From assembly GCA_029057785.1 (NCBI GenBank), contig JAIDZC010000022.1, positions 1 to 64,000 on the forward strand: DNA of 64,000 nt. Direction: 5' to 3'. How positions within the stretch are numbered: position 1 is the first letter of the stretch; every line of letters begins with the position of its first letter. The position numbers were made by a program, and so were the translations under genes. This DNA comes from Anaeroplasmataceae bacterium. Its GTDB lineage: Bacteria; Bacillota_I; Bacilli_A; Acholeplasmatales; Anaeroplasmataceae. Shown piece after piece: positions 46,973-53,234 of the stretch. The notes below the pieces were generated by a model. That model ran no database searches. It was not told where the DNA came from and saw only the letters and a list, made by a program, of their open reading frames with translations.

Positions 46973-46980
46973 GATTTAAA

Positions 46981-47007
46981 AAAATGGGTCTCATAACCCA
47001 TTTTTTT
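46981..47007. terminator. Terminator between the DUF1836 and SpoIIIAH-like genes
   Basis: ATGGGT-CTCATA-ACCCAT (46984-47001) flanked by A- and T-runs, so it can work on both strands. It follows the DUF1836 stop and reaches the SpoIIIAH-like stop. Confidence 0.75.
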
Positions 47008-47494
47008 AATCGTTATTTGAGGTTGACGAAAGCTTAACCGTATAATTTGAATTAAACTTTTCTTTAGCCAATCTAGTAATACTTATGAAGTTCGCCTTTG
47101 TAAGGTCTGTATCTGTACAAACATCAATCACAAGAACTTCGTCTTGTAGAAGTACTAACACATCCTCAAAATCTAAGGAAGCCATGATCATTTCTTCTAA
47201 AGCAATTTCATCCATTTTGGTTTGTCTTAGAGAAACAATTTTTGCATTTTCTTCTTCCACTTGAGCCACAGTTAATGTTCCTGATGCAATCTTAGCCTCT
47301 GCTTCTTCAATAAGAGCTGTTACCTCTTCTATACTCTTCATTCTTGCTTCTGCAAATTCTGGATTTGTTGTGCTTGTATCAAGACTTGGAGAACCTACAG
47401 GATCAGTCGTCTTATTGGCCTCGTGGATGTAGAATATAGACATCATAACAACTACGGCTAAAAGTAATATTGGCAATCTCAGTTTCTTTTTCAT
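47006..47494 (-). CDS. SpoIIIAH-like protein
   Basis: 162 aa. One N-terminal membrane helix (residues 6-23), a helical linker rich in Glu/Ala, then a small C-terminal domain: 'LDFEDVLVLLQDEVLVIDVC' and 'LAKEKFNSNYTVKLSS' follow the ring-forming SpoIIIAH/YscJ-type domain. SpoIIIAH spans the mother-cell membrane and pairs with forespore SpoIIQ. Here it is outside a spoIIIA operon. A SigE-like promoter (47518-47544) supports sporulation expression. No other spoIIIA gene is nearby. Confidence 0.7.
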   Translation of the reverse strand: MKKKLRLPILLLAVVVMMSIFYIHEANKTTDPVGSPSLDTSTTNPEFAEARMKSIEEVTALIEEAEAKIASGTLTVAQVEEENAKIVSLRQTKMDEIALEEMIMASLDFEDVLVLLQDEVLVIDVCTDTDLTKANFISITRLAKEKFNSNYTVKLSSTSNND

Positions 47495-47517: not shown

Positions 47518-47544
47518 AGTATATGATATGAGTTTTCATTTTAT
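47518..47544 (-). promoter_or_regulatory. SigE-like promoter of the SpoIIIAH-like gene
   Basis: Minus-strand ATA (47542-47544), 16 nt, CATATACT (47518-47525; 7 of 8 to CATACAnT). The -35 overlaps the stop codon of the upstream gene. AGGAGAGGA follows before the ATG. Confidence 0.45.
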
Positions 47545-50500
47545 GCAAATTTTTCTATTACTTTATTCATACGAATCGATTTTTTCCAGTAGCTACCATA
47601 TATATATTCTATGCCTAGCTCTGTAGCTTTTAGAACCTCTTCTTTACTAGAAACATTAGAAAGAATAAAGATAATTCCTTTATCTTTGCAAAGCTTTGTT
47701 AGTTCAGCCACAGAATCAAAGCCTTGCTTAGAAACATCATAAATATAATATGAAATATTATTTTGATATACATCCATAAGGTTACTAGAAGCAACCTTAT
47801 AGCCTAAAGCCTTTAGACGTTTTAATTCTTTATGAGCTCCGGCCTCATAAAAGAAGATCAATCTCTTAGTCGTTTTGTAGAAGCTATGCTGTGATTCTAT
47901 GAAAGGAACCAAATTTGCCTCCATTACTTTAGAGCTTAACGTTACTAGAATCGGCAAAGATGTCTTAGAAACTTCACTTAGCATTTTTAATTCTTTTGAA
48001 CAGCAATTAATTACATATTTATCTACAAGTTCTTCTAATCCTCTTCTAGCTATAACCCATTTCATATGAGTCTGGTCTACTTCAAAACTATCTAAAGAAA
48101 CTTGAGCAACATAAGCATAAACCTCTGTTTTAGATAAATCAATAAGCTGTTTATAAGATATACCTAATCTTCCATGGTCAATAGCTTCACTAATATTGGT
48201 ATCTAACTGATTTTCAACAAATCTTAATTTTGCAGCCTCACTATCGTAATGACTAATATGATGGTTCAAATCCTTTAAGCTCTTGGCATCATATAAAGCA
48301 TCATAGGCATAATCAATCAGCCTGCTTGGCTCCTGAATATTTGCATTCTTAGAAAGACGAAATACTCCACAATTAAAGAATAGCTTAATTCTACTACTTA
48401 GCATATTTAAGACTTTTGCGACCTTATCAAAGGCCTCAATTAAAAGATGATCTACAGTTCTTTTATCATTTATGTCAATGAAAAGGATAGCATAGCGATC
48501 ATATCCCATATGATACAGCTTAATTTGGAAATTATTTGAAAAATGGGATCGCATCTGCTCTGCAATTGCTAAGATAACCTGCTTAGAAGTGTTGATTCCA
48601 TATAAATCCTCATAAAGCTTAAAGTCATGAATATCAAAAACTGCAAGACTCAGCTTACGATTATCCATATACTCCCCTAAATCTGTAACTAACTTAATTT
48701 CTGTATCCAACATACTAATAGGATTTGTATAGGCTAAATGATATAATTCCTGACTCTTTTCCTTATTTTTGGTGTTATCCTCGATTAAAGAATATAAAGA
48801 TAGGATTCCATTTTCATAGGATGGAAAAAAAGTCTCTTTAATTTCTATATAATTTTGATTTTTCCTGTATCGATATTCAATAGATTGATTAGCAGATAAA
48901 TACTTATAAATATTATCAATTAAAGCCTCATATTGTGCCAAATCAGAAGCATGAATATGGGCTTTAAAATCCTCTTCACTTATGTCTTCTAAGCTTCCTA
49001 AAATGTTTTTTGCTTGAGCAGAAAGATGAATATGTCCTTCCATTAATTCCTTTATGCCAGAGGTCATATGCTCATAAATGAAAAACATTTTTTTATTAGA
49101 TGAACGTATTTCATTTTGAGCAAGCTCATTAGATAAAACACGATGAAGCATCTGAGATACAAGCTTTAAGGTTTCATATACCATATCCTGATCTAAGAAT
49201 GGCTCTAATCCCCAAAACGCAATAGATGCAAAAGGAATATCTTCTTTGAATAATGGAATGGCAATACCATAAGGTATATCTAAATATGGTTCCTGTGTTA
49301 CAATGTTTTTAAGACCACTTGTAGAGTGTCTATTCAAATAAACCTCTTGTTCTTGTGCAATGGCTAGCATATTGATTGTATCGCTAGCCTTTTCATAATC
49401 TAGAAGCTTATCATAGGCTCTTTCCTTCTTATAATGCAGTCCATTATAGCCACGATCATAATAAAGTAAATATGCTTCCTCAAAAGGAATAAATTTAGCT
49501 AGTTCAATTAAAGCTAACCGAAAAATCTCACGAAATTTTACAGTATCATCTAGATTATTTATAATGGCAAACATCTTCTCTAGCTTAATATACGTACTTG
49601 AAACATAAACCTCTTGAACATTTTTTGTAAGCTCATGAATATTTGGCATCAATTTAGAAGACTCTTTTTCTTCCTCTATCTCTTCATTTTCTTTTACTCT
49701 TGGAACGACAATACCAGATTTCAGAGCATCTGTCTTTGCCTTTGCCTTCTTCTTGTTTAAGCTATATTCATTTACTAAATCTTGATAATGCCTTATAGAA
49801 ATCAAAGAATTGGTTTGAGTGTACAAATCAAGACACGCCTTACAGTATGCTAAAGCGGTAGGATTTGTAACACTTTTTAAATATTCTTCGTAATTACTTT
49901 CAATGATAGATGCCTTACGATAATCCTTACTTTCTATATAGGCTTTTAAAAGAAGAGTGGCAGTTAAAATAATTGTTTCTGCTTCTAAATCATATTCATT
50001 TAATAGGCGGTTGCCTTCACAAATGACTTTGATGTAATTTCCCTCTATAAAGGCAATTTCTAATTTTTTATATTCTATATCAATTAATTTATTGGTATTT
50101 AGAGTATCCTGATAAATTTTTTCTAGTTCAGGTGTAATATTTAAATAGGATTTATAGTCATGAACCTCATAATAAATAGCCGCCAAGCATTCATATGCCC
50201 AGGAAGATTCTTCAATAGTTAGAATTTCATTAGAATAATTCTTAAGCTCTCCAATCGCCCGATGATAATCATGTCTTGCCATTGCAAGCCGAATTTCATC
50301 CTTCGTATTGGATAAGGAATTAGATATTTTTAAATGTTTCTTCTTTTCATCTATATATTTTCTTGTTTGATCAAAAAGCTTAATCTCTAAAGTAATGTCA
50401 ATAATTGCATCACAAATGGCAATAACCTCTTGATCTCCTAGCTTAGAAAAATCTGGAACATAGGAATATAATGCCTTTAATGCATCATTGGTTTTCCCTA

Positions 50501-50639
50501 AAGCATGTAGGATTAAATTTCTATACGCAAAAGCTTTATAGTAGTCTATGCTTTTCTTATTACAGCCAGCTAAAAATAAATCTATTTTCTTTATAGATTG
50601 CATCGTTTTATCAAGTTGCAATATTTCATTTAAATACAT
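47541..50639 (-). CDS. Large TPR-GAF-PAS protein with degenerate GGDEF and EAL domains
   Basis: 1032 aa from ATG 50639; GTG at 50651 is the alternative. About 1-300 are TPR-like helices, 350-515 a GAF domain, 525-640 PAS-like, then a GGDEF fold ('LAVFDIHDFKLYEDLYG') whose GGDEF signature reads 'MGYDRYAILF', and an EAL fold starting 'GRLGISYKQLIDLSKTEVYA' with AYVAQV in the EALVR position, ending 'ATELGIEYIYGSYW'. Both catalytic signatures are lost, so it probably senses or scaffolds rather than makes or breaks c-di-GMP. Cytosolic, no membrane helix. Overlaps the phosphoesterase gene upstream. Confidence 0.75.
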   Translation of the reverse strand: MYLNEILQLDKTMQSIKKIDLFLAGCNKKSIDYYKAFAYRNLILHALGKTNDALKALYSYVPDFSKLGDQEVIAICDAIIDITLEIKLFDQTRKYIDEKKKHLKISNSLSNTKDEIRLAMARHDYHRAIGELKNYSNEILTIEESSWAYECLAAIYYEVHDYKSYLNITPELEKIYQDTLNTNKLIDIEYKKLEIAFIEGNYIKVICEGNRLLNEYDLEAETIILTATLLLKAYIESKDYRKASIIESNYEEYLKSVTNPTALAYCKACLDLYTQTNSLISIRHYQDLVNEYSLNKKKAKAKTDALKSGIVVPRVKENEEIEEEKESSKLMPNIHELTKNVQEVYVSSTYIKLEKMFAIINNLDDTVKFREIFRLALIELAKFIPFEEAYLLYYDRGYNGLHYKKERAYDKLLDYEKASDTINMLAIAQEQEVYLNRHSTSGLKNIVTQEPYLDIPYGIAIPLFKEDIPFASIAFWGLEPFLDQDMVYETLKLVSQMLHRVLSNELAQNEIRSSNKKMFFIYEHMTSGIKELMEGHIHLSAQAKNILGSLEDISEEDFKAHIHASDLAQYEALIDNIYKYLSANQSIEYRYRKNQNYIEIKETFFPSYENGILSLYSLIEDNTKNKEKSQELYHLAYTNPISMLDTEIKLVTDLGEYMDNRKLSLAVFDIHDFKLYEDLYGINTSKQVILAIAEQMRSHFSNNFQIKLYHMGYDRYAILFIDINDKRTVDHLLIEAFDKVAKVLNMLSSRIKLFFNCGVFRLSKNANIQEPSRLIDYAYDALYDAKSLKDLNHHISHYDSEAAKLRFVENQLDTNISEAIDHGRLGISYKQLIDLSKTEVYAYVAQVSLDSFEVDQTHMKWVIARRGLEELVDKYVINCCSKELKMLSEVSKTSLPILVTLSSKVMEANLVPFIESQHSFYKTTKRLIFFYEAGAHKELKRLKALGYKVASSNLMDVYQNNISYYIYDVSKQGFDSVAELTKLCKDKGIIFILSNVSSKEEVLKATELGIEYIYGSYWKKSIRMNKVIEKFA

Positions 50640-50644
50640 CTGCC

Positions 50645-51088
50645 TCACCACCGATATAAAACACTTTTTATTTTTCCTTCTTGATATAATTGAATTTCTT
50701 CATCAAGAATTACAATATAGCCATTTGGATAACTACCAGGATTTAAGAATAATATTCCTTCTTCTATAAAACACATTTGCTGATGTGTGTGACCAAATAG
50801 AATAACATCTGCTTCTTTTTCTAAAGCTCTATAAATAAGTCGATCAAGCCCATACTTCACATTTTCTTGATTTCCATGTGTAACATAAACCTTTTTACCA
50901 AAAAGTTCTAGAAGTAAAGCATCTTCTCCGTAAATATCACAATTTCCCTTCACAAAGAAAACATTCCTATGGTTGAAAGAGGCTAGACTATTCCCATAAT
51001 CTCCACAATGAATTACTGCATCAAACTTTTCAAAGTCAAGAGTTTCTAAAGAAGTATGATGACTATCACTCAAAACTAAAATTTTCAT
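50645..51088 (-). CDS. YfcE-type metallophosphoesterase
   Basis: 147 aa. 'KILVLSDSHHT', 'IHCGDYGN', 'VKGNCD', 'VTHGNQE' and 'LFGHTHQQ' are the complete metallophosphatase motif set of the YfcE/MJ0936 phosphodiesterase family. The natural substrate is not known. It overlaps rdgB by 23 bp, the common rdgB-yfcE/ysnB pairing of Firmicutes. Confidence 0.92.
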   Translation of the reverse strand: MKILVLSDSHHTSLETLDFEKFDAVIHCGDYGNSLASFNHRNVFFVKGNCDIYGEDALLLELFGKKVYVTHGNQENVKYGLDRLIYRALEKEADVILFGHTHQQMCFIEEGILFLNPGSYPNGYIVILDEEIQLYQEGKIKSVLYRW

Positions 51089-51653
51089 GTGTTAGCTCCT
51101 TTAGCTTTTGGATTGCCTTGGCACGATGAGAAATTTTATTTTTTATTGTCAAAGGAAGTTCTGCCATAGTTTTACCATATTCCTCAACGTAAAAGCAAGG
51201 GTCATAGCCAAAGCCATTTGTTCCCATAAGTTTTTCTGTGATTTTGCCTTCACATTTTCCTTCTGCAAGAACATAGGTACCATCTGGATAATACATACAA
51301 ATCACACAAACAAATTGGGCTCTACGATCGGTCACACCTACTAAATTTTTCAACAAAAGCTGATTATTGGCTTCTGCATTATGATTAGAGGCATATCTAG
51401 CAGAATGAATTCCTGGTGCCCCATCTAGTGCCATAACCTCTAAACCTGAATCATCTGCAATAACAATACCATTGGTTTCTGTTGAAACCTGTTTAGCCTT
51501 TATTATTGCATTCTCTTCAAAGGTTTTACCATCTTCTATAATTTCTTTTGTGTATGCAATATCCTCTAGAGATAAAACTTCACAATTGGGAAATAATTCT
51601 TTAAATTCCTTCAGTTTTCCTTCATTTCTTGTGGCAATCACAATCGTTCTCAT
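51066..51653 (-). CDS. rdgB: XTP/dITP pyrophosphatase (HAM1 family)
   Basis: 195 aa. 'IVIATRNEGKLKEF' opening, 'VIADDSGLEVMALDGAPGIH' and 'SARYA' active-site block, and 'NGFGYDPCF' and 'ISHRAKAIQKL' near the end are complete. It removes deaminated purine nucleotides from the pool. Followed by the phosphoesterase and the GGDEF/EAL-like gene in one operon. GAGG precedes the ATG. Confidence 0.95.
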   Translation of the reverse strand: MRTIVIATRNEGKLKEFKELFPNCEVLSLEDIAYTKEIIEDGKTFEENAIIKAKQVSTETNGIVIADDSGLEVMALDGAPGIHSARYASNHNAEANNQLLLKNLVGVTDRRAQFVCVICMYYPDGTYVLAEGKCEGKITEKLMGTNGFGYDPCFYVEEYGKTMAELPLTIKNKISHRAKAIQKLKELTHENFSFE

Positions 51654-52991: not shown

Positions 52992-53234
52992 TTATTTTTT
53001 TAACAGTTTAAATAAGTCTGGTGTGATGCCTTTATCCTTTAGCATTTTTACAATTCGATCCTCTTGATCCCTAGATAAAGTCTTATTTGCCAAACCACAC
53101 CCTTTGCGAATAATTAATCTCAAATTATCCTCATCATTTAAATCTAGAGTTGAAGCTTCACTTACAAGTTCATACATCGCCTCTTGATTTATATTTGATC
53201 TTGCAATCAAATCAATTATGTTCTTAAAATCCAT
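52992..53234 (-). CDS. SpoVIF family protein
   Basis: 80 aa. 'NQEAMYELVSEASTLDLNDE' and 'DNLRLIIRKGCGLANKTLSR' with 'DRIVKMLKDKGITPD' follow the small SpoVIF family of Bacillus (coat assembly). GGGAGG precedes the ATG. A SigK-like promoter (53254-53280) fits its late mother-cell expression. Family call from memory of B. subtilis SpoVIF, so moderate. Confidence 0.65.
   Translation of the reverse strand: MDFKNIIDLIARSNINQEAMYELVSEASTLDLNDEDNLRLIIRKGCGLANKTLSRDQEDRIVKMLKDKGITPDLFKLLKK

Follow-up and report, generated by a model that had tools for sequence, protein, structure and literature searches.

Regulators in which both the GGDEF and EAL domains are catalytically dead are of a known kind, and they usually share cells with c-di-GMP use, which makes their dependence on the messenger hard to settle. 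DosP, MorA, PA0575 and PA0861 are reported to act as c-di-GMP enzymes and possess EAL sites, while LapD (a membrane protein) and FimX bind c-di-GMP and CsrD of Escherichia coli acts without c-di-GMP turnover. In LapD and FimX a dead GGDEF-EAL pair serves signalling (PMC3032553), and the pair is also degenerate in CsrD (PMC5635695, PMC5876332). In E. coli, specific contacts are made by GGDEF domains that are degenerate (PMC5635695), and HubP is bound by a GGDEF domain that is inactive (PMC9061725). The staphylococcal GGDEF protein GdpS is kept where no other GGDEF protein exists and its effects are reported to be c-di-GMP-independent, its effect on the ica operon being also independent of its protein-coding function (PMC9714401).

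The window analysed here, a 64,000-nucleotide stretch of an Anaeroplasmataceae genome, encodes a 1032-aa protein with a dead GGDEF-EAL pair of this kind, in a family and architecture for which we found no description in the open-licence PMC papers searched. The protein shares its tandem GGDEF-EAL fold with DosP, MorA, PA0575 and PA0861, its best profile and Foldseek matches, and an upstream PAS domain with PA0861, but it has lost both sites and gained a TPR-GAF region. Counterparts of the c-di-GMP pocket residues of LapD and FimX are absent from it. CsrD is membrane-linked, gammaproteobacterial and devoid of a TPR-GAF region, whereas the 1032-aa protein has TPR, GAF and PAS parts in place of a transmembrane segment, and GdpS differs in that its GGDEF domain is conserved and an EAL domain is lacking. 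We consider it probable that the 1032-aa protein is a c-di-GMP-independent hub for signal input and protein contact and not an enzyme, because of its folds, its dead sites, its vertical inheritance, the selection acting on it, its conserved synteny and its retention where c-di-GMP parts have been lost. The gene cluster at the locus comprised the following features.

46976 to 47009, minus strand: terminator-like hairpin that ends the cluster of rdgB, yfcE, the gene of the 1032-aa protein and the spoIIIAH-like gene
47006 to 47494, minus strand: SpoIIIAH-like small membrane protein, downstream of the 1032-aa protein gene; this order is shared by genus g1 and part of genus g6
47541 to 50639 (stop codon included), minus strand: 1032-aa soluble protein with TPR, GAF, PAS, degenerate GGDEF and degenerate EAL parts (ORF, Pfam, AlphaFold2, Foldseek, hydropathy)
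50645 to 51088, minus strand: yfcE-like metallophosphoesterase, directly upstream of the 1032-aa protein gene; synteny conserved, but missing at this site from genus g4
51066 to 51653, minus strand: rdgB/HAM1 NTP pyrophosphatase, upstream and overlapping yfcE; a neighbour across the order

The open reading frame of the original prediction is real, and its strand, which had been left out, is now fixed as minus, with the stop at 47541 and an ATG at 50639 as the best start. A Shine-Dalgarno-like GGTGAGG stands before this ATG and overlaps the yfcE stop codon. Hydropathy agreed with the description of the protein as cytosolic, as no transmembrane segment was found (Kyte-Doolittle, no 19-residue window above 1.6) and the protein is soluble by this measure. 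Its parts, from the N-terminus, were as follows.

49716 to 50639, minus strand: TPR-like helical superhelix of about 17 helices, residues 1-308 (AlphaFold2; profile matches to consensus TPR proteins; Foldseek match to the TPR of 8chy)
49110 to 49607, minus strand: GAF-like alpha/beta domain, residues 345-510 (AlphaFold2; Foldseek matches to GAF-containing proteins)
49407 to 49433, minus strand: YKKERAYDK, residues 403-411, the best-conserved GAF element, on its second and third strands (ortholog conservation)
48777 to 49067, minus strand: PAS domain, residues 525-621 (Pfam, AlphaFold2, Foldseek)
48240 to 48776, minus strand: linker and degenerate GGDEF domain, residues 622-800 (Pfam, AlphaFold2, profile search, Foldseek)
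48492 to 48506, minus strand: GYDRY in place of GGDEF, residues 712-716 (alignment to L177)
48459 to 48470, minus strand: NDKR, a family-specific motif, residues 724-727, in which D725 and R727 do not vary (57 orthologs from the order)
47544 to 48239, minus strand: degenerate EAL domain with the loop-6 segment deleted, residues 801-1032 (Pfam, AlphaFold2, Foldseek, alignment)
48102 to 48110, minus strand: VAQ in place of EAL, residues 844-846 (alignment to L177)

Pfam recognized the GGDEF domain above its cut-off (1.4e-9, residues 659-787), the EAL domain below threshold (0.0011) and PAS_3 weakly (0.014), and the EAL model was matched in 40 of 49 family members at E<=0.01. NCBIfam gave GGDEF-type matches that were all under cut-off, and a PDB sequence search with the protein as a single query gave weak GGDEF matches only. 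AlphaFold2 models were built on 49 orthologs in two pieces, residues 1-625 (pLDDT 86) and residues 610-1032 (mean pLDDT 90). Top Foldseek matches of the second piece were all GGDEF-EAL proteins (PA0575, MorA, DosP, PA0861 and LapD; E to 2e-24), with TM-scores (target) of up to 0.76 at 3.2 A against isolated EAL domains, and the N-terminal half matched PAS, GAF-containing and TPR structures. Both enzyme folds and the large TPR and GAF/PAS regions of the original prediction were borne out by these comparisons. Residues 345-510 can be assigned as GAF-like with moderate confidence from structure and not from Pfam, as GAF_2 was found in only one of the 49 family members, at 0.005. The motif YKxxRxY of this putative domain was highly conserved (Y403 in 47/49 orthologs, K404 in 48/49) and was also present in homologues from f19, another family of the class.

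For the catalytic motifs, 57 orthologs of the order were tabulated against L177, a relative of GAF-PAS-GGDEF-EAL architecture that carries SGDEF and sites of the EAL type. The predicted replacement of both motifs held in this alignment throughout the family, so that the GGDEF fold was recovered without its active-site motif and the EAL fold without its catalytic residues. The EAL glutamate, the NxS asparagine, the DDFG aspartates, the loop-6 lysine and the AEG glutamate were all lost from the 1032-aa protein, the loop-6 lysine/aspartate segment was a gap in 57/57 orthologs, and neither [SG]G[DE][DE]F nor DDFG occurred in any of the orthologs checked. Judged by these motifs, the family is catalytically dead in every ortholog checked, and the inactivity is therefore not a recent decay. 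The EAL glutamate (E844) was kept in 18 of the 57 orthologs, and residual ligand binding may therefore persist in some members. Family-wide conservation analysis identified five residues that were invariant in 49/49 orthologs: Y409 in the GAF-like domain and the fold-specific positions Y680, G681, D725 and R727 in the degenerate GGDEF domain.

Homologs of the 1032-aa protein were found in 53 of 60 relatives and in 41 of the 43 good genomes. Most were of full length, with in essence a single copy in each genome, and carriers included Anaeroplasmataceae MAGs, Anaeroplasma bactoclasticum ATCC 27112 and Acholeplasma laidlawii (ortholog at G054 C1:894930-897932). A survey of 395 genomes of the class showed the full-length protein throughout the order except in genus g23, whose genomes of 0.6-0.9 Mb are phytoplasma-sized, and distant full-length homologs in family f19. 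The protein tree matched the taxonomy, in that a single branch set each genus or family group with more than one row apart from the rest. The 1032-aa protein belongs to the core of the Acholeplasmatales, where it is inherited vertically and in single copy, and dN/dS values were 0.05-0.09 for unsaturated pairs, to which these values are confined as dS was saturated in many pairs. As an unnamed core protein of the whole order, including the culturable A. laidlawii, it is directly testable. A phage origin was rejected, as tblastn against phages gave no match, and so was a role in anti-phage defence, for which there was no PADLOC match. In one closed genome (L179, G049:C1:1082566-1086748) both this gene and an adjacent gene, coding for the RNDxVGHP protein described below, were broken by a frame split and stops, through either decay or sequencing error.

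Operon analysis showed that rdgB, usually followed by yfcE, was located upstream of and co-directional with the gene of the 1032-aa protein in families f1, f2, f3 and f5. In families f3 and f5 a choline-kinase/APH-like gene, with a product weakly similar to thiamine kinase and CcrZ models, was often found between yfcE and this gene (L050, L056, L057 and similar loci). At loci of genus g4 (L026, L027, L030-L033, L035 and L044) and at one f2 locus, yfcE was missing and rdgB abutted the gene, and yfcE was rejected as an obligate partner on account of its absence from the locus in g4 genomes. This neighbourhood bears on the reading that the protein binds or turns over another nucleotide through the GAF YKxxRxY motif or the NDxR face of the degenerate GGDEF domain, and would be a repurposed enzyme or receptor instead of a scaffold. 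That the gene stays linked from family to family with rdgB, which acts in nucleotide sanitation, would fit such a role, as would rdgB and yfcE together as neighbours, and so would the polar and charged residues that are invariant within the GAF motif and at positions D725 and R727. These residues could, however, serve folding or interfaces, the protein stays where the g4 locus drops yfcE, and no nucleotide-binding motif was recognised in it, so that we regard this reading as unlikely.

The original prediction had also proposed that the genome may lack c-di-GMP altogether. No further GGDEF or EAL match was found within the window, where it had seen no active protein of either kind, but the own genome (1.76 Mb in 44 contigs, 97.7% complete) contained six matches to GGDEF and two or three to EAL, among them a protein with an intact GGDEF motif and an EAL protein that keeps its catalytic residues, both encoded outside the window. 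The former (contig C2) has 956 aa in a REC-HD-GYP-GGDEF arrangement, and its ARIGGDEF site is intact, and the latter (contig C32) has an EAL domain retaining E, N, E, DD, K, E and Q. With canonical GGDEF, HD-GYP and EAL present, absence of c-di-GMP was rejected for this genome; the dead enzyme folds and the TPR, GAF and PAS parts of the prediction stood. The own genus (g1) has few c-di-GMP components and no c-di-GMP-I riboswitch was found in the own genome, which suggests partial pathway reduction. A further protein of the own genome (L002, G000:C31) combines a degenerate GGDEF domain with an EAL domain in which the EAL glutamate is intact and DDFGTG has become VDGFPL.

The proposed absence holds instead for the recognisable c-di-GMP components of the sister genus g4, where the 1032-aa protein is kept. 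This genus was sampled by eight genomes (89-99% complete) and surveyed for three components, GGDEF, EAL and the c-di-GMP-I riboswitch. All GGDEF matches in the eight genomes belonged to the 1032-aa protein or to a second dead GGDEF family, an EAL match above cut-off was found in 0/8 (51/60 genomes overall) and the c-di-GMP-I riboswitch in 0/8 (33/60 overall), while the 1032-aa protein was kept in 8/8. In the single close g4 pair, its dN/dS was 0.073 overall, 0.059 for the degenerate GGDEF domain and 0.038 for the degenerate EAL domain, indicating that purifying selection on the degenerate pair persists without recognisable c-di-GMP enzymes. Genus g4 can therefore be interpreted as a natural experiment in which recognisable c-di-GMP components are gone and two dead proteins are still under selection, and as the 1032-aa protein was retained after loss of intact GGDEF, intact EAL and the c-di-GMP-I riboswitch, its conserved function would be c-di-GMP-independent, at least there.

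This outcome counts against a second reading, that the protein is an effector of the LapD/FimX type, catalytically dead but with an EAL domain that continues to bind c-di-GMP and a signal passed on by conformational change. LapD, FimX and DosP are among its best structural and profile matches, c-di-GMP enzymes are present in the own genome, and the orthologs with E844 would suit such binding. Against this, the protein itself lacks the EAL glutamate and has lost the NxS, DDFG and AEG residues together with the loop-6 lysine segment, the motif residues of the c-di-GMP pocket region are not conserved, and it is kept in g4, where no co-occurrence with c-di-GMP synthesis could be recognised. We therefore give an effector of this type only a low probability, and most likely the 1032-aa protein does not bind c-di-GMP. 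PilZ was rejected as a partner, as it occurred in 1/60 genomes.

That the protein is what remains of a decaying c-di-GMP enzyme and does little might be supposed from the scarcity of c-di-GMP genes in its genus and from the split G049 copy, which may be a pseudogene. This reading is very improbable and largely refuted by full-length frames nearly order-wide, conserved gene order, dN/dS far below 1 in unsaturated pairs and the same invariant residues in 49/49 orthologs, and a pseudogene or relic was rejected on selection and conservation.

As a c-di-GMP-independent hub, the 1032-aa protein would be a cytosolic signal integrator and scaffold that neither synthesizes nor breaks down c-di-GMP. Its TPR superhelix may hold client proteins, the GAF-like domain with its YKxxRxY motif and the PAS domain may serve as sensors, either of a small molecule or of an intramolecular state, and the degenerate GGDEF-EAL pair, its fold kept without an active site, would relay the change through protein contacts. 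The protein probably predates the divergence of the order's families. Its ancestor would have been a (GAF-)PAS-GGDEF-EAL enzyme, and the nearest relatives of that enzyme in which the motifs look intact survive elsewhere in the class. The closest such homologs outside the order were (GAF-)PAS-GGDEF-EAL proteins of family f12 (L177 in G116; L209-L212). L177 aligned with the 1032-aa protein over the GAF-PAS-GGDEF-EAL region (2.5e-78) and shared Y-K-x-x-R, as well as ExR at the NDxR site. The f12 proteins differ in that SGDEF and the main catalytic residues of the EAL domain are present, and there is no TPR region in L177.

Two further core families were co-distributed with the 1032-aa protein. 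The second dead GGDEF family has about 500-530 aa, two N-terminal hydrophobic helices, two PAS domains and a degenerate GGDEF domain with a conserved SG(L/V)xF...TDxRKM, and its own-genome copy lies at G000:C18:45421-46962 (L004, L043). Matches to it were found in 41/43 good genomes and 7/8 g4 genomes, a few of these being other GGDEF proteins only, and both it and the 1032-aa protein were missing from g23 genomes. A D-x-R motif common to the two families is not claimed, as hhalign placed the motifs out of register. The other family is a 350-aa protein encoded directly downstream of the 1032-aa protein gene in 22 loci (families f2, f3 and f5) and present in 40/43 good genomes, including the own genome (G000:C39:16518-17537; L240, L243), where it adjoins typA/bipA, and in 7/8 g4 genomes. 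Searches of Pfam, NCBIfam, PADLOC and PDB sequences gave no match to it. Its motif RNDxVGHPTxRxY was invariant, with R-N-D-x-V-G-H in 18/18 copies and R-N-D-V-V-G-H in the 10 family-f1 copies read. The HEPN signature is Rx4-6H in which R is followed by a polar residue (PMC3710099), and the RNDxVGHP motif fits this signature, making the 350-aa protein putatively HEPN-like.

Both families are candidate partners of the 1032-aa protein on the sole basis of co-distribution, and a connection to RNA is hinted at by the HEPN-like neighbour only. That the 1032-aa protein, the membrane PAS-PAS protein with its degenerate GGDEF domain and the HEPN-like protein, possibly an RNase, form one undescribed Acholeplasmatales pathway, in which c-di-GMP enzyme folds would have been turned entirely into modules for protein contact that control RNA metabolism, is a speculative and rather doubtful proposal. 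A SpoVIF-like protein was also encoded near the cluster (52992 to 53234 of the window), and together with the SpoIIIAH-like protein it represents sporulation-type genes in an Anaeroplasmataceae genome.
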